64,000 nt of DNA, from assembly GCA_003193925.1 (NCBI GenBank), contig PSPG01000004.1, positions 62,001-126,000 of the forward strand. Reading direction: 5' to 3'. The notes under the pieces are model-generated. The model was not told where the DNA came from. It worked only from the letters and a program-made list of their open reading frames with translations, and did not search any database. The DNA is from Candidatus Thalassarchaeum betae (GTDB lineage: Archaea > Thermoplasmatota > Poseidoniia > Poseidoniales > Thalassarchaeaceae). Positions 49,154 to 56,319 of this stretch are shown piece by piece. A program made the position numbers and the translations under genes. Position 1 is the stretch's first letter. Each line of letters starts with the position of its first letter.

Positions 49154-51139
49154 CTATTCGGACGGAGGCGGTTTGAGAACGTCTGTTCGTCCGCCGCCCG
49201 CTATCGAAATTGCGACAAGCACGGAAATGACCAGCAGGCCATTTGATGGCTGTGCTAGCCAAGCCAGCCAGCCATCCCCCGAGAACGGCGATTCAGCCTC
49301 GAGGAGCAACGGGATGCGCTGCTCTATGCCGCTGCTGTCTAACAAGACGAGTTCCCCGCGAGCGAGCATCCCCGGCTCGAGCAACCCTGCTGGATCTATG
49401 TCGAGAGTTATCGAGTCGCCTGCGGACAAGGTTCCTTGCGTGGCGGCCGTGGCGATTCTCTCGGCAGCTCCTTCCACAGCTATCGAGTAGGTGCGCTCAC
49501 CATCCCCCTCGTATTCAGGGGTGACTTGGACGGTGGAGGGAGAGTCCCAAGCGACGATGATCTCGAGCTGTGAGGTGGAAAGGCGATGGCCGACTCGGAA
49601 CCAATCGAGGTCTATGTCCGTCAGAGCCTCGCCCTCGCATCCTATGGTGCCTCGCAGGTTGCCATGATCGCTGGGGCCGTCCGGGCTATACAGAATCACT
49701 ATCTCGTACTCGCCTGAGGGAATCTCAATGTAATCGGGCTGAATCTGCCCTCCGCTCTGCGTCCACGATAGCGACACCTCCAATGTACATGGCTGAGAGG
49801 CTGTCACCTGAGCGTAGGATGACTCACCCGGAATGAGTTGGATGGGGTTGTGGGGAGTCAGGACATCGACGCTTGACTGCCCCGAGGGCTGGATGGCCAC
49901 AGTGGCACTGTCATCACCCAATGACTCGACTGTAGCAGTCCACTGAACCATTCTACCGCGGTTGTCCCGGATAATCATCCCACTATCTCCGAAAACTCCC
50001 CCCTCTGAGAACACGTCCCCTGGACTGCCGGTGTCCCTGCCTCTCTCGAGGGCTGCATCACCGTCGGCCTCGATGATCTTCACCCAAGCAGTGTCGGGGT
50101 CTGTGTTGACGAGGTTATCGAAGGAATTTCCGTTGTTCTCGTCCTGATGCTCGACTAGTATCCCGTGTCCCGGAAGGGCGGCATCGAACCCGGCATCCCC
50201 ACGGAAGGTGACCCACAGGGTCTCTCCGGGAGCGAGTTCGATCGATAGGGGCCGACCACCGGCAGAAATCGGTGACATCTCAAAACTGCCCCCGACGAGG
50301 GGGTCGACTGCGGTGGAACGGTGAGCGCCTATCAGTTCGAGAGTGGCCGAACCGGGCAAAGCGGGAATGTTTCCGTTGCCGTTCCAGTTGCCGCTGGCCA
50401 TTATGTCCCAGTCGCCCAGTCCGTTCCAATTGGAGGATGGCAGAACGCTGTGCACGTCGTAGAGGTCGAGCGCTCCCATCTGGTGGAGCATCTCGTGGAC
50501 CACCGTACCGATGCCCGAGTCCAAAGATGCAATGGTGTAATGGTTCACCGACCAGTCATCGAAGGACAGAGGCTCATCCAGCCAAGACATGTGGCTCCAG
50601 AGTGTATTGGCACCTCCTCCGGTCTCCTGAGCCCTTCCTGAATGGAGGATCAGCAGCCTGTCTATCGCACCGTCCCCGTTGAAGTCCCACTTGGAGAGGT
50701 CTTGGCCCTCCAGCATCGCCTTGCAGGCCTCCTCGACGAGTGCGGTAGCTCCTATGTCACGCTCGTCGGAGCTGTCCGCACCCCAATGCCCCTCTGATTG
50801 GGGCGCGGTCCACACGTCACCGTACATGGTGACCATGAGGGTAGATGCTCCGCCGCTCATCTGCTCGATGTAGCTAGTCGCTGAGCCCTCGCCTAAGAGG
50901 ATCGATTCAGCCTTGTTCTGGGAAAACGCCCTGTCAGGGAACTGGACCATGAGAACCAACCACTGCTCATCGCTCTGCAACTCAACCAGATCGAACGATT
51001 CGTCCGTCGGTTCGGCTATCTCAGCCTCTATCCAATCGTCTATCACATCCGGATTGAGATTGGCCCAGACGCCCATCATCAGCACGGCTGCTACGATGGC
51101 TGCGCGTGCCGCGTTCATGGACCCACGTCCATGAATCAC
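49154..51139 (-). CDS. Secreted M6-type metalloprotease with C-terminal anchor
   Basis: The 661-residue protein has an N-terminal signal segment (AARAAIVAAVLMMGVWA) and the zinc motif HEMLHQMGALDLYD (HExxH) with DWDIMASGNWNG after it, as in M6 immune-inhibitor-A peptidases. DFNGDGAIDRL looks like a calcium-binding loop. Beta-rich domains follow and a C-terminal membrane helix (SNGLLVISVLVAISIAGG). The protein should digest proteins outside the cell. No twin-arginine pair is visible in the signal, even though tatC is only five bases upstream. Confidence 0.87.
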   Translation of the reverse strand: MIHGRGSMNAARAAIVAAVLMMGVWANLNPDVIDDWIEAEIAEPTDESFDLVELQSDEQWLVLMVQFPDRAFSQNKAESILLGEGSATSYIEQMSGGASTLMVTMYGDVWTAPQSEGHWGADSSDERDIGATALVEEACKAMLEGQDLSKWDFNGDGAIDRLLILHSGRAQETGGGANTLWSHMSWLDEPLSFDDWSVNHYTIASLDSGIGTVVHEMLHQMGALDLYDVHSVLPSSNWNGLGDWDIMASGNWNGNGNIPALPGSATLELIGAHRSTAVDPLVGGSFEMSPISAGGRPLSIELAPGETLWVTFRGDAGFDAALPGHGILVEHQDENNGNSFDNLVNTDPDTAWVKIIEADGDAALERGRDTGSPGDVFSEGGVFGDSGMIIRDNRGRMVQWTATVESLGDDSATVAIQPSGQSSVDVLTPHNPIQLIPGESSYAQVTASQPCTLEVSLSWTQSGGQIQPDYIEIPSGEYEIVILYSPDGPSDHGNLRGTIGCEGEALTDIDLDWFRVGHRLSTSQLEIIVAWDSPSTVQVTPEYEGDGERTYSIAVEGAAERIATAATQGTLSAGDSITLDIDPAGLLEPGMLARGELVLLDSSGIEQRIPLLLEAESPFSGDGWLAWLAQPSNGLLVISVLVAISIAGGGRTDVLKPPPSE

Positions 51140-51143
51140 TCTT

Positions 51144-52268
51144 TCAATCCAATGCCGACAAGATTGGCTGATGCATCAAATCGCGGATGGAAGAGGCACG
51201 CCATGCCTCGTCAGAAGATTCTGGAGCGTCCAGCCAGCCCAATCCGCCATATTCGCAGCCCATGGAATCAAGCGAGGACCTGAGAGATGGAGGGAGGGGA
51301 GTCGCGTCGCATCCTGCGATGATAACATCCGAGAGTCTCTGATGCAGGACCAAGTCGGCCAACGCATCCTGCTCCGTCGGCTCTAGACAGAGGGCCGAGC
51401 ACCTGGGCGCGGCCACGCCCTCGTGAACGGTGCCTGATGGAAATCGTGGGCAAGCACCCTCGCAACCGCAGTCGATGAAGGCGACCCTGTGCACAGAGCC
51501 ATCCGAGGCGATCATGTCCTCGACATCGAACCTCCTGCGACCGAGCGGGGCTTCTGGCAAGGTGCGGGAGATTGCGTCAGCCACCGCCATGGATATGGCG
51601 GCGACTAGCAGCCTCAGGCCCTCGTACTCGACTGGGAGAGTGAGCAGCAAGAGTCCTCCGAAGATCAGCAGTATACGCACCCTGAGCCTCGCCTCACCGT
51701 GCTCCACGAGACCCAGCAAGCGAGCCATAGACAGAGAGAGGGTGGCGAGCATGACGGTTACGAGTAGCCAGGAGAACCCCAGAGCCAGTCTGAACAGAGC
51801 GCTGGCGTCGTATCTGGCTCCAACCCCCTCCAGAGCGTCAGCAGCCTCAGTTGCCTCGATGAACAGGGGAAGCAGGTAACCCCATGTCGCTAGGATCACC
51901 GCCGGGACCATGACCATACTCAGGCAAAGCAGGACTGAGAGCCAAGTGCGCTCACGGGGAAGCAGCCCTGGACGAGCGAATCGCTGCAACTGGAAAGACA
52001 GTACCGGCATCACAGTTAGGAGGGCGAGTAAGATGGCCAAGGACCAGCGTATCTCCAACCACTCGAAGGGAGAGTACACAGACAGGTCGAGCGAGGCGGC
52101 GCCCAATGGAAGCGAGTTCAGCCACGCTCGCATCAGCGAGTCGGTGCCATACGCCCATGCGATTGCTGCGATGGCAATCAGTATGGCGGATTTGCGTATT
52201 GAGCGATGCAACTCAGACAGATGCTCGGACAAGGGCCTACGCCTGTCGGAGGATACTGCGAGTGTCAT
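51144..52268 (-). CDS. tatC: TatC translocase with C-terminal cysteine-rich domain
   Basis: TatC is the signal-recognising core of the twin-arginine translocase. Residues 1-246 carry the family marks: LSEHLSELHRSIRK, then a first membrane helix, VYSPFEWLEIRW, QLQRFARPGLLPRERTWL, and six hydrophobic segments. Normal TatC stops here. This one continues for about 128 residues of soluble sequence with seven cysteines (about 267, 269, 273, 290, 294, 320, 338) in RVAFIDCGCEGACP, PRCSALCLEP and LSDVIIAGCDA. That pattern recalls the N-terminal domain of HdrA-type Fe-S flavoproteins. ATG 52268 is one base past the upstream stop; the longer frame to 52361 lies in that gene. Confidence 0.85.
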   Translation of the reverse strand: MTLAVSSDRRRPLSEHLSELHRSIRKSAILIAIAAIAWAYGTDSLMRAWLNSLPLGAASLDLSVYSPFEWLEIRWSLAILLALLTVMPVLSFQLQRFARPGLLPRERTWLSVLLCLSMVMVPAVILATWGYLLPLFIEATEAADALEGVGARYDASALFRLALGFSWLLVTVMLATLSLSMARLLGLVEHGEARLRVRILLIFGGLLLLTLPVEYEGLRLLVAAISMAVADAISRTLPEAPLGRRRFDVEDMIASDGSVHRVAFIDCGCEGACPRFPSGTVHEGVAAPRCSALCLEPTEQDALADLVLHQRLSDVIIAGCDATPLPPSLRSSLDSMGCEYGGLGWLDAPESSDEAWRASSIRDLMHQPILSALD

Positions 52269-52269
52269 A

Positions 52270-53325
52270 TCAGAGGATGTCCTTGACCTGTGGCTCAGCT
52301 CTGGCTGCCAACACCGTCCTGTAGACGCCGTAAGCCGCCCAGACGCTGATGAAGAAGGCACAACCGATTGCGAACCCGGTAATGTCGGAGGTCCTAGTCC
52401 CCTCCTCGACGATAGTGGCCGGAGGGAATGCTATGGAAACATCGGAGGCCATCCAGCGGACCCCGATGGCGAATGCTGCAATGCAGAGCAAGCCTCTTCG
52501 GATGGCCTGGGGATAAGCAAGTTCGTTTGCCAGGAACTCAGGACCGTCGTCGTAGCGTCGGTCGAGGATCTCCTTCTGCACCACAGCTCCGACTATCAGA
52601 GCCACAAGACTGGTCCAGTATAGCAGGTTGCCCTGCTCGAATATCCTCAGTGACAGCGCCGCTTGGCGGTCTGCCTCCTTCTGGGCGTCGGACTCCTCGA
52701 TCAAGAACAGGGTGTCGTAGTCACCTACGGAGATGGTCCTAGTTTCGAGTGTTGCCGCATCGTCACCGGAAACTATGGATCCGGGCGGGCTGACAGTGAA
52801 TGAGAGTAGGTTCCAGTAGTCGTTCTCGTCAGGCACCCCGGAGCCGTCAACTGAGTTGCCTGCCAACCAAAAGTTAACTCCGCCGACATCTTCAGCGGGC
52901 GCGGTCCAGTTCAGGAACCAGATGCCATCGGAGTCGATGCCGGACTGCGATATGTCATCAAGGGCATCATCTACCTCGCGAATGTCCTGATCATTGGCCC
53001 AAGTAAAGACCCCCATGCCCTCCGAAGAGAGAAGGAAACCTGCCTTTGTGTTGCCACTGCCGCCCGAAAGCGTCAGCGAGTCTGCAACGGTGATGGTGTA
53101 CTGATAAGTCTCGTCGAGCCCATACATCACAGGGATGCCGGTGATCATTACCACCGATCTGTCCGAAGGGGCGCCGTTGTTGTGACAGGTGCAACCATAC
53201 TTGACAGTCGGATCTCCGTTGTTGTTCTCGACAGGCGGTCCACCGGACATTGCCATGACGGGCAGGGCTAGCAATCCCAGCAGCACCAGGCAGATGGCCG
53301 CTTTATCCACAATCGACCGCATCAT
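52270..53325 (-). CDS. Choice-of-anchor V/reeler-like membrane protein with CxCH motif
   Basis: After a signal peptide (ICLVLLGLLALPVMA), the 351-residue protein has YGCTCHNNGAPS and a beta-sandwich (YQYTITVADS, AGFLLSSEGMGVFTW, GIWFLNWTAPAEDVGGVNFWLAGNSVDGSG) that matches the choice-of-anchor V/reeler fold. The CTCH is one residue short of a CxxCH heme site. Three C-terminal membrane helices (about 225-245, 275-295, 320-340) anchor it. It is followed by tatC with a one-base gap. I take ATG 53325; the frame is open to 53379. Confidence 0.75.
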   Translation of the reverse strand: MMRSIVDKAAICLVLLGLLALPVMAMSGGPPVENNNGDPTVKYGCTCHNNGAPSDRSVVMITGIPVMYGLDETYQYTITVADSLTLSGGSGNTKAGFLLSSEGMGVFTWANDQDIREVDDALDDISQSGIDSDGIWFLNWTAPAEDVGGVNFWLAGNSVDGSGVPDENDYWNLLSFTVSPPGSIVSGDDAATLETRTISVGDYDTLFLIEESDAQKEADRQAALSLRIFEQGNLLYWTSLVALIVGAVVQKEILDRRYDDGPEFLANELAYPQAIRRGLLCIAAFAIGVRWMASDVSIAFPPATIVEEGTRTSDITGFAIGCAFFISVWAAYGVYRTVLAARAEPQVKDIL

Positions 53326-53375
53326 GTCACCCGTACCTCTGTCAGATGCCGGAGTCTCATAACCGTTGCTCGGTC

Positions 53376-53397
53376 GCATCCCCTAGAAAGGGGATGC
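53376..53397. terminator. Hairpin after pntB
   Basis: GCATCCCC (53376-53383) and GGGGATGC (53390-53397) are perfect 8-bp complementary arms with a TAGAAA loop. It begins eight bases past the pntB stop on the minus strand and about 50 bp before the next start. Its role as a terminator or mRNA end is inferred. Confidence 0.45.
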
Positions 53398-53404
53398 GGC
53401 ATCC

Positions 53405-54832
53405 TCACAGCTCCTTGATGGCCGAGTTGAGTTCGTTCATCATCTTCTTGCCGTCGCCGAACAGCATCATCGTCTTCTCCATGTAGAACAAGTCGTTGTC
53501 AACTCCAGCGTACCCCACGGACAGGCTTCGCTTGATAATCACTACCACCCTGGCCTTGTCTACGTCCAATATGGGCATCCCCGCCAGAGGGCCCTCACCC
53601 GTGCGAGCCACGGGATTCGTGGTGTCGTTGGCACCAATGACCAAGGCGACGTCGCAGTCAGTGAACTCCGAGTTGATGTCATCCATCTCGATCAGTTGCT
53701 CGTACGGGACGTTCGCCTCAGCCAGCAGGACGTTCATGTGACCGGGCATTCTGCCAGCGACCGGGTGGATGGCATAGGACACCTCGCAGTCAGCAGCCTC
53801 CATCATGTCGGCGAACTCCTTGACTGCGTGCTGGCTCTGACTGACCGCCATCCCGTAGCCCGGGACAACGATGACCTTCTGAGCCCCGTCCAGCACCATC
53901 GCGACCTCCTCGGGGTCGCTGCCTACCTTGGTGCGAGTCGGCTGATCCTTGTCGCCGGTCCCACCGAACGCCTTGAAAAGGACTTCTCGCAGGGTCCTGT
54001 TCATCGCCTTGCACATGATGAATGTGAGTATCAGACCGGCTGCGCCGACCATCGAACCGGCGATGATGAGGACGTTATTCCCAATCACGAAGCCAGTGAA
54101 CGCAGCGGCGATTCCGGACAGCGAATTCAGCATACTTACTACTACAGGCATGTCGGCCCCGCCAATCGGGATGACGAAGAGGATGCCGAGCAGGCTGGAA
54201 AATCCCACTATGCCCCAGATGTAGGCCTTGTTTGAGGGCTCTTGGATGGTCATCCAGATAAGATAAAGGGAGCCAATCAGAAGCAGGAGCTTCACGGCGT
54301 TGAGCCAAGGGGGGCCCCAAGTGGGGAATCTTAGCCACTTCTTGGTGAGAGGCACGACGAAACCGCCCTTGAGCTTCATCATCGCGACCAGTGAGCCGGT
54401 GAGGGTCATCCATCCGACCAATCCCGACAGGCCGATGGCTACCCAGACGGCGTAGAGTTCGACGCCGGGTTCCGGGACATTTCCCTCCTCGAGTCTACGC
54501 AGGACCTCGGACAGGGCTACGAGTGCTGACGCACCTCCTCCGAAGCCGTTGAACAGCGCCACTAGCTCGGGCATTCCAGTCATCTCGATGCGAGTCGCCA
54601 TCAGGGCACCGATCAGGGCCCCTATGGCCAGCCCCCCGACAATCAGCTCCCAGCCGATTATCCCCTCTGAGTACATCCTAGCCACTGTGACCAGTACAGC
54701 GAGGAACATACCCATTGCACCGATTCTGTTTCCCCGGGGGGCTGTCCTCGGACTGGAAAGCTGCTTGATCCCGAGGATGAAGAGGACGGCTGCCACCAGG
54801 TACCCGATATCCCACACCGCTGCGCTTACCAA
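53405..54832 (-). CDS. pntB: NAD(P) transhydrogenase subunit beta
   Basis: PntB supplies the membrane part dII and the NADP-binding domain dIII of proton-translocating transhydrogenase, which makes NADPH from NADH at the cost of proton gradient. The 475-residue protein shows eight or so membrane helices (with FNGFGGGASALVAL and MLNSLSGIAAAFTG) and the dIII signature VIVVPGYGMAVSQSQH, HPVAGRMPGHMNVLLAEA, VIGANDTTNPVA and KRSLSVGYAGVDN. It starts at TTG 54832, directly after the pntA2 stop. Confidence 0.95.
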   Translation of the reverse strand: MVSAAVWDIGYLVAAVLFILGIKQLSSPRTAPRGNRIGAMGMFLAVLVTVARMYSEGIIGWELIVGGLAIGALIGALMATRIEMTGMPELVALFNGFGGGASALVALSEVLRRLEEGNVPEPGVELYAVWVAIGLSGLVGWMTLTGSLVAMMKLKGGFVVPLTKKWLRFPTWGPPWLNAVKLLLLIGSLYLIWMTIQEPSNKAYIWGIVGFSSLLGILFVIPIGGADMPVVVSMLNSLSGIAAAFTGFVIGNNVLIIAGSMVGAAGLILTFIMCKAMNRTLREVLFKAFGGTGDKDQPTRTKVGSDPEEVAMVLDGAQKVIVVPGYGMAVSQSQHAVKEFADMMEAADCEVSYAIHPVAGRMPGHMNVLLAEANVPYEQLIEMDDINSEFTDCDVALVIGANDTTNPVARTGEGPLAGMPILDVDKARVVVIIKRSLSVGYAGVDNDLFYMEKTMMLFGDGKKMMNELNSAIKEL

Positions 54833-55153
54833 TCACCCACCACCCTTGCGTCTCTTACCGGCGATCATCTCCAGCATCCTGTTGGTGACCATGAAGCCGC
54901 CAACGGCGTTGATGGTGGCCATGACCAGTGCTGCGAAGGCCAACCAGGCTGCAGTTCCCGGATCGCCGTCGTTGAAGGCGGTGTTGGACAGAATCAGAGC
55001 GCCGACGATGGTGATGCCGGAGATCGCGTTGGCACCGGACATCAACGGAGTGTGCAGAGTCGATGGGACCTTGCTGATGAGCTCGAAGCCGAGGAAGATG
55101 GCCAGGACGAAGACGGTGATGCTTCCGACCAGTGCAGCGACAGTGAGGCTCAG
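54833..55153 (-). CDS. pntA2: NAD(P) transhydrogenase subunit alpha, part 2, with CTG start
   Basis: The 106-residue membrane part of the alpha subunit (dII) contains TVFVLAIFLGFELISKVPSTLHTPLMSGANAISGITIVGALIL, as in split bacterial PntAA/PntAB. The conserved sequence begins before the first normal start codon (TTG 55045). Upstream in frame there is no ATG, GTG or TTG before a stop. CTG 55153 forms a CTGA overlap with the pntA1 stop, just like the ATGA junctions elsewhere in this window. I therefore take CTG as the likely start. Confidence 0.8.
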   Translation of the reverse strand: MSLTVAALVGSITVFVLAIFLGFELISKVPSTLHTPLMSGANAISGITIVGALILSNTAFNDGDPGTAAWLAFAALVMATINAVGGFMVTNRMLEMIAGKRRKGGG

Positions 55154-56319
55154 TTGACCACCCCCGCCAGTCTGGACTGGTTCTCATGGATGACTCCGCC
55201 CATGCAGATTAGGACGCCACCCATCCCCGCCACGTAGAATTCGGAGCCCTCCGGGGCGCCGACGATTACGTCGTCGTCCAAGTCGAGTCGCAGTTCACCC
55301 CCCTCGACGAGTGTGATGGCGAAGTTCGTCAGGTTGTTCGAGTACAGCATGCTCGCTGTGGATGCGATCAACCCGGGCAGGTTCTCGATTCCGATGATTT
55401 TGATCCCGTGCTCAACCACGATCTTTCCAGGTCTGGTGAGCTCGCAGTTGCCGCCAACGTCAGCGTTCATGTCTACTATCACCGCGCCGTCCTTGAACGA
55501 CTTGACTGCGCTAGTGGGTACAGTGATTGGGGCGGGGCGGCCAAAGATGCGAGCGGTGGTAATGATGACATCAGCATTCTTGGCCACGTCGCAGACGGTA
55601 TCGTTGACCCTCTGGATGAACTCGGGAGTCAGGGGCTTAGCGTATCCCGACTCGTCCTCGAAGTCGTCCATGCCCTCGACCTCGATGAAACGTCCTCCGA
55701 CGGACTCGATCTCCTCGGCGGCCGACTTCCTGACATCGGATGCGTAGACGACGCCGCCGAGGCGCTTGGCAGTGGCGATGGCCTGCAGTCCTGCCACGCC
55801 GCTGCCCATGATGACGAACTTGGCGGGCTTGACGGTGCCCGCGCTCGTGGTCATCATAGGGATGACCTTCGAGATATGGGCAGCTCCCATCAGCACTGCT
55901 TTGTAGCCGGCGAGGTTATCCTGACTGGAGTTAACGTCCATGGATTGGGCCCTAGAGAGCCTCCTGGGAATCATGTCCATGCTGAGCAGGGTGACTCCAG
56001 CAGCCATTGCTTCCCTCACGCGCTCTGGGTGCCTGAACGGGTCTGCGACGCAAGCCAGCATCTGGCCTGGGCTCATCGAAGATGCGTCTGGCATGTGGAT
56101 GGCGACGAGCAGGTCGGCTGACATCACCTCGTCTCGTGATACGATCTTAGCGCCCTTGGACTCATATTTCGAGTCAGGGTAATTGGAGCGTACGCCAGCC
56201 CCCGACTGGACCAGTACCTCGAAGCCCTCCTTGCCCAGCTTCCTCAACGAATTCGGAACTATCGCGACACGGTTCTCGCCATCCGGCTCCAGCAATACTC
56301 CGAGTCGCATTTCAGACAC
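55150..56319 (-). CDS. pntA1: NAD(P) transhydrogenase subunit alpha, part 1
   Basis: The 389-residue soluble dI domain binds NAD(H). Features: EMRLGVLLEPDGENRVAIVP, MDMIPRRLSRAQSMDVNSSQDNLAGYKAV (the RQD-type loop), VIMGSGVAGLQAIATAKRLGGVV, TTARIFGRPAPITV and GGNCELTRPGKIV. Together with pntA2 and pntB it forms the complete split enzyme. GTG 56319 or ATG 56310 may be the start. An inverted repeat lies 13 bp upstream. Confidence 0.94.
   Translation of the reverse strand: MSEMRLGVLLEPDGENRVAIVPNSLRKLGKEGFEVLVQSGAGVRSNYPDSKYESKGAKIVSRDEVMSADLLVAIHMPDASSMSPGQMLACVADPFRHPERVREAMAAGVTLLSMDMIPRRLSRAQSMDVNSSQDNLAGYKAVLMGAAHISKVIPMMTTSAGTVKPAKFVIMGSGVAGLQAIATAKRLGGVVYASDVRKSAAEEIESVGGRFIEVEGMDDFEDESGYAKPLTPEFIQRVNDTVCDVAKNADVIITTARIFGRPAPITVPTSAVKSFKDGAVIVDMNADVGGNCELTRPGKIVVEHGIKIIGIENLPGLIASTASMLYSNNLTNFAITLVEGGELRLDLDDDVIVGAPEGSEFYVAGMGGVLICMGGVIHENQSRLAGVVN

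Follow-up and report, generated by a model that had tools for sequence, protein, structure and literature searches.

More than one TatC per genome is a familiar arrangement: haloarchaea have TatCo and TatCt, with a tandem TatC, and Bacillus subtilis has TatCd and TatCy. There the TatCs are fused in tandem or are each complete, whereas in the archaeal order Poseidoniales (Marine Group II) we find the characteristic residues of TatC divided between two genes, one of which also carries a domain of the HdrA type. Where Tat proofreading takes place is an open question, and how the system judges the export readiness of cofactor-bearing proteins has long been one. To our knowledge, a cytoplasmic redox domain has not been described on any TatC. 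Tat rejects iron–sulfur substrates that lack their cluster, among them NrfC, NapG and QcrA (PMC6708511).

The TatC of Escherichia coli is an obligate oligomer (PMC5102672), the Tat complex is a TatBC trimer and, in a structure from 2026, E15, F94 and E103 bind the twin-arginine motif (PMC13323110). Substitutions at M205, Q215 or P221 inactivate TatC, and TMH5 and TMH6 bind TatA and TatB (PMC10197872). The TatC proteins of M. xanthus and N. salsuginis are also enlarged by an extra part; however, their inserts lie on the periplasmic side and have not been called redox domains (PMC13323110). In HdrA, the N-terminal domain carries an iron–sulfur cluster, one ligand of which (Cys197) is contributed by another HdrA copy (PMC9012536).

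Here we analysed a 64,000-nucleotide stretch of the genome of Candidatus Thalassarchaeum betae (hereafter, the window; the assembly is 1.48 Mb in length and 92% complete) that encodes a TatC paralogue, TatC2, with a C-terminal extension (Table 1). TatC2 shares with E. coli and archaeal TatC the common core (PF00902) and the equivalents of H12, E15, F94 and E103, which form the twin-arginine site, but it has lost the motifs of TM4–TM6, carries a cytoplasmic cysteine domain and probably works with a complementary paralogue. The extension resembles the N-terminal [4Fe–4S] domain of HdrA in its modelled fold, its four-cysteine pattern (CxC, C, C) and its profile, but it is attached to TatC, most of the other invariant HdrA residues are not kept, and the FAD/thioredoxin-reductase or ferredoxin domains that follow in HdrA are absent from the tatC2 reading frame. 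The first-pass annotation knew of no such system, and the open-access literature agrees with it: we found no description of TatC and HdrA as a single protein or of TatC function in the Poseidoniales, nor did the literature searched report a TatC with a cytoplasmic redox domain. We tentatively propose, as a reading that may quite possibly hold, that TatC2 is the signal-recognising subunit of a translocon with two TatCs and that its iron–sulfur-type tail gates export according to redox or cluster state.

Table 1 Features of the tatC2 locus and its tail-less paralogue. Positions are those of the window, except for tatC1.
Feature	Position	Strand	Basis or remark
tatC2, TatC paralogue fused to HdrA N-terminal-like domain	51144..52268	(-)	374 aa, ATG start
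TatC core of tatC2	51549..52268	(-)	Pfam match, alignment to E. coli TatC, hydropathy
HdrA N-terminal-like domain, cytoplasmic, 134 aa (residues 241-374)	51147..51548	(-)	hhalign, AF2, Foldseek, VIA
CxC motif, tail C27 and C29 (protein C267, C269)	51462..51470	(-)	aligns with HdrA CxC
Third conserved Cys, tail C54 (protein C294), 'LC'	51387..51389	(-)	matches HdrA 'TCS'
Fourth conserved Cys, tail C80 (protein C320), 'GCD'	51309..51311	(-)	matches HdrA 'ASCTPR'
M6-family metalloprotease-like protein, secreted	49154..51139	(-)	TIGR03296, E 7.8e-33
Choice-of-anchor V protein, secreted/membrane, GCxCH	52270..53379	(-)	NF041895, E 1.3e-18
NAD(P) transhydrogenase beta subunit	53405..54832	(-)	NF006974, E 2.9e-121; synteny
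NAD(P) transhydrogenase alpha subunit	55150..56319	(-)	NF006942, E 3.1e-101
tatC1, tail-less TatC paralogue	G000:C9:26803-27573 (L062:2801-3574)	(-)	window's genome

The start of tatC2 was placed at the conserved ATG at 52268, which is common to its orthologues, and its stop codon lies at 51144–51146; the GTG start in a program-made list of open reading frames, which gives 405 amino acids, was rejected as too far upstream. The TatC core named in the first-pass annotation is confirmed by a Pfam match over residues 16–201 (E 7.4e-16; 59 bits against a curated cut-off of 25.1), and the NCBIfam TatC equivalogs match the protein only below their cut-offs. On one simple hydropathy scale, peaks lie at residues 28–46, 76–94, 110–128, 161–179, 195–213, 207–225 and 220–238; the last three overlap, six helices fit the peaks and membrane-like segments precede the tail. 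Because the conserved residues of TM4–TM6 (E170, P172, P209, D211 and P221) are mostly replaced, we file TatC2 as a putative divergent TatC subunit and not as a complete TatC.

The tail is a real extension, slightly longer than the 128 or so residues (51144–51530) first assigned to it. The HdrA likeness had been proposed by pattern only, and single-sequence searches of Pfam, NCBIfam and the PDB with the tail returned nothing convincing; the link emerges only by whole-genome profile search, profile–profile comparison and fold comparison, each of which singles out the HdrA N-terminal domain. A profile of 49 tails (alignment A1), built with no HdrA input, was searched against six-frame translations of 145 genomes of the phylum. 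The TatC fusions of the order came first, followed by weak matches (E 1e-5 to 1) that fell mostly in long open reading frames; 18 of the 20 that were fetched are HdrA or HdrA-like proteins matched at their N-terminal domain, and all six of these that were scanned match NCBIfam HdrA models, below equivalog cut-offs. Profile–profile comparison of A1 with an alignment of HdrA N-terminal domains (A3) gave a probability of 95.4, an E-value of 1.8e-8 and a score of 54.6, and a second tail alignment (A2) gave an E-value of 1.4e-8. The score stands far above background, as the best of 60 column shuffles reached 16.9 and the reversed alignment 17.3; A3 was built from the weak matches of the A1 search, so that these two lines of evidence are not fully independent.

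Fold comparison points the same way. The AF2 model of the window's tail (pLDDT 88.3, pTM 0.83) was compared with the PDB, and the structural match that the first-pass annotation had suggested looking for was found: the top seven rows are all HdrA chains, matched over residues ~2–141, both by Foldseek (probability 1.00, E-values near 1e-3) and by VIA-align 2 (Z 8.2–9.4 over 112–115 residues), with the next unrelated VIA row just below at Z 7.4. For a tail from the other family of the order (pLDDT 91.8, pTM 0.86), seven HdrA rows again lead by VIA, with Z 7.7–8.8 and the next row at 6.1. The invariant cysteines of A3 (C10, C12, C45 and C70) correspond to C27, C29, C54 and C80 of the tail, the third pair being one residue off in the profile alignment relative to the Q that follows. 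We conclude that the tail and the N-terminal (iron–sulfur) domain of HdrA are truly related, a homology that is established computationally.

The tail of the window's protein has seven cysteines (positions 27, 29, 33, 50, 54, 80 and 97), in the number and order first described (CxCxxxC, CxxxC, then the VIIAGC segment). That count overstates what is conserved: only C27, C29, C54 and C80, the cysteines of HdrA, are kept across the order, whereas C33 is frequent in the window's family but not throughout the order, and C50 and C97 vary. In A1 the invariant columns are C27, C29, C54, G79 and C80, and A1 and A2 both have five, reading C, C, C, G, C. All four key cysteines are present in 73 of 97 distinct aligned sequences. 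Of the 82 tails that could be scored, 75 are without loss: in 73 every one of the four cysteines is read, and in 2 a base at the last of them is unread. The other seven have lost 4, 4, 4, 3, 2, 2 and 2 of them, and none has lost one only. The residues at the four positions in these exceptions are HSDL, HIDL, VGHG, NSSC, SYCC, CQVC and CHVC. By hand estimate, 21 losses over 328 sites would, if independent, yield around 17 proteins with a single loss; kinship reduces the losses to approximately 4–5 events, each of which hit at least two cysteines. Grouped loss is the pattern that joint ligands of one centre would show. In a further 76 loci, 40 have the cysteine motif and one (L287) shows multiple loss, with the remainder tail-less or cut; two (L280 and L297) keep the cysteines with a different residue ahead of the last one. 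In the AF2 model, C27 ends strand 1, C54 lies ahead of helix 57–70 and C80 follows strand 74–77, which in a fold of this kind would usually place these three cysteines at one edge of the sheet. Three loci (L070 in G101, L124 in G148 and L132 in G072) keep the domain with all four conserved cysteines gone, and are natural variants that would be cluster-less.

A TatC relative was recovered by whole-protein search in 177 of 193 genomes and 20 of 21 genera of the order. Most of the matches, in either family, extend through the tail, with a minority ending near residue 239; tailed TatC proteins, for which the first-pass annotation had advised a search, occur in most genera of both families. An assembly error or a frameshift joining two genes is ruled out, as dozens of genomes share the fusion and its operon. 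The annotation had named such an error, or the lack of a structural match together with unconserved cysteines, as grounds for giving up its reading, and we found none of these. We conclude that the fusion is ancestral to the Poseidoniales and has been inherited vertically in one operon. The TatC-core tree implies around four changes of tail state, for which four losses are the simplest reading because both families have the tail. Tail-less tatC2 copies occupy the same genomic place and are therefore orthologues, and no standalone tail gene was found in two tail-less genomes (G001 and G005). In one tail-less copy (L060), new stop codons directly follow the TatC core, but tail-like codons survive beyond them: the short peptide that they spell, RLDSEYSDNNI, resembles the end of a relative's tail. 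This loss was probably recent. Both the tail (around four times) and the cysteines (around 4–5 times) have been lost while the gene stayed, and so neither is essential to Tat function.

The operon is conserved. The choice-of-anchor V gene stands beside tatC2 in all 40 loci compared, its product has GCxCH in all 40 copies, and the M6 protease-like gene, whose product could conceivably process or clear Tat substrates, adjoins tatC2 in 39 of the 40. The genes for NAD(P) transhydrogenase usually lie upstream, a link that is missing in one genus (L035–L037). The stop codon of the choice-of-anchor V gene comes immediately ahead of the tatC2 start, and the GCxCH of this exoprotein is a possible candidate for an extracellular metal or heme site.

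The tail may instead be a docking platform that brings a soluble partner (a maturation chaperone, a ferredoxin or a flavoprotein) to the translocon, with a cluster that is structural or completed by the partner; we regard this as rather unlikely. The HdrA precedent, in which a second chain supplies Cys197, speaks for it, as do the three loci that retain the domain with no conserved cysteine, in which a binding role would be separable from the cluster, and the further C-terminal part of approximately 90 residues in one family. However, four cysteines of one chain suffice for a complete cluster, and no gene for a partner of the tail was found in the conserved operon. Docking of HdrABC in particular is ruled out, as no HdrA was found in the window's genome, in which the search gave only isolated ferredoxin-like or FAD-motif matches. 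The additional C-terminal residues (~60–90, with PW...WG motifs) follow the HdrA-like domain in L033–L052 and L064–L069, that is, in the other family and in a few genera of the window's family, and are predicted to form added strands and helices.

The proposal of a signal-recognising TatC2 within a two-TatC translocon draws on the second paralogue, TatC1. Nearly every genome has two TatC paralogues; TatC1 is present in 75 of 78 genomes, and the window's genome has one TatA. With residues numbered as in E. coli TatC (from NC_000913), F94 and E103 are present in 89 of 89 TatC2 sequences, and E or D stands at position 15 in 74 of the 79 that have this position. In TatC1, F94 and E103 are found in none of 30 sequences—F94 is replaced by N in 27, and E103 mostly by K or R—and these two positions lie in an otherwise alignable stretch, with the N-terminal alignment of TatC1 uncertain near residue 15. 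Conversely, P172, P209, P210, D211, P221 and E227 are present in all 30 TatC1 sequences, with Q at position 170, and most are lost in TatC2. A sister family of the same class has no tail and shows the same split (L186 and L187 against L185 and L188), whereas four more distant Thermoplasmatota (L180, L182, L183 and L184) have a TatC with essentially both sets of residues. The resolution of the TatC tree is too weak for the duplication to be dated; because the sister family shows the split and no tail, we infer that the split came before the tail and that the HdrA-like domain joined the recognising half in the ancestor of the order. A mixed complex of TatC1 and TatC2 is plausible, as TatC is an obligate oligomer and TatBC a trimer, and the pair probably forms a split, hetero-oligomeric translocon that is older than the HdrA-like tail.

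TatC1 and TatC2 could also be separate diverged translocases, or former translocases, with the HdrA-like domain belonging to a TatC2 that has another role. The strong divergence of TatC2 in TM4–TM6 and the lack of the known signal-peptide residues in TatC1 fit this reading, but the two sets of losses complement each other and are not random, the pattern recurs in the tail-less sister family, nearly all genomes keep both copies and the window's genome has a single TatA; we consider it unlikely.

In the two-TatC gate that we favour, the four cysteines of the TatC2 tail (CxC, LC, GC) would probably hold one iron–sulfur cluster, and TatC1 and TatC2 would assemble as hetero-oligomers. TatC2 would bind the twin-arginine motif, and TatC1 would provide the TM4–TM6 surface for TatA binding and assembly. 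As the C terminus of TatC is cytoplasmic, the HdrA-like domain would sit beside the twin-arginine site. Whether a folded substrate enters would then be decided by the cluster, through its presence or its oxidation state, or by a docked partner, and the outcome would be a redox- or iron–sulfur-dependent gate on export. A redox- or cofactor-sensing role for the tail, as suggested in the first-pass annotation, is compatible with everything found here and is helped by the place of the domain, on the TatC copy that retains the twin-arginine-binding site.

An iron–sulfur centre in the tail is likely, given the grouped loss of its cysteines and the cluster of the HdrA N-terminal domain, and zinc is possible. 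One HdrA ligand comes from a partner HdrA, so that the geometry of the tail site may differ. A purely structural site, at which the four cysteines bind zinc or an inert cluster and stabilise a small Rossmann-like domain for assembly of TatC1, TatC2 and TatA, appears distinctly unlikely: a CxC...C...C arrangement could bind zinc, and joint loss of the four cysteines from a retained domain is what a replaceable stabilising site might undergo, but HdrA conserves these four positions too, and its domain carries an iron–sulfur cluster. Still less probable is a donor that supplies Tat substrates with electrons or with a ready-made cluster ahead of export, with no gating: the tail is related to an electron-relay domain and has transhydrogenase genes and a GCxCH exoprotein as neighbours, but no cluster-bearing Tat substrate was identified, one genus lacks the transhydrogenase link and the signal peptides of the choice-of-anchor V neighbour show no clear twin-arginine motif.

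Rieske proteins were considered as iron–sulfur substrates of Tat and are ruled out, as no twin-arginine signal is present in the Rieske-domain proteins found in these genomes; a motif scan of the window gave no clear Tat signal. A bolder form of the gated translocon, in which the two TatCs are obligately complementary and a [4Fe–4S] domain related to heterodisulfide reductase opens or closes export by redox, oxygen or iron–sulfur status, strikes us as somewhat doubtful. If it is true, this would be a redox-gated protein translocase that is ancestral to Marine Group II. The sequences suggest that export in these archaea, the most abundant of the surface ocean, may be tied to the redox or iron–sulfur state of the cell.

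Should the domain carry a cluster, the question of how Tat judges readiness becomes directly testable: the four cysteines can be changed, and nature has changed them several times. The split TatC would be a natural division of functions that one protein holds in E. coli, and could ease dissection of the translocon. Marine Group II is abundant and uncultured, so that a major marine group may have a Tat system basically unlike that of the textbook.

Two HdrA-like flavoproteins from outside the order, L103 (G197) and L116 (G208), have an unusual N-terminal domain (CTCRGE and CSCRGE, respectively). L103 comes closest among the matches to the TatC tail, and these proteins mark a possible source lineage.
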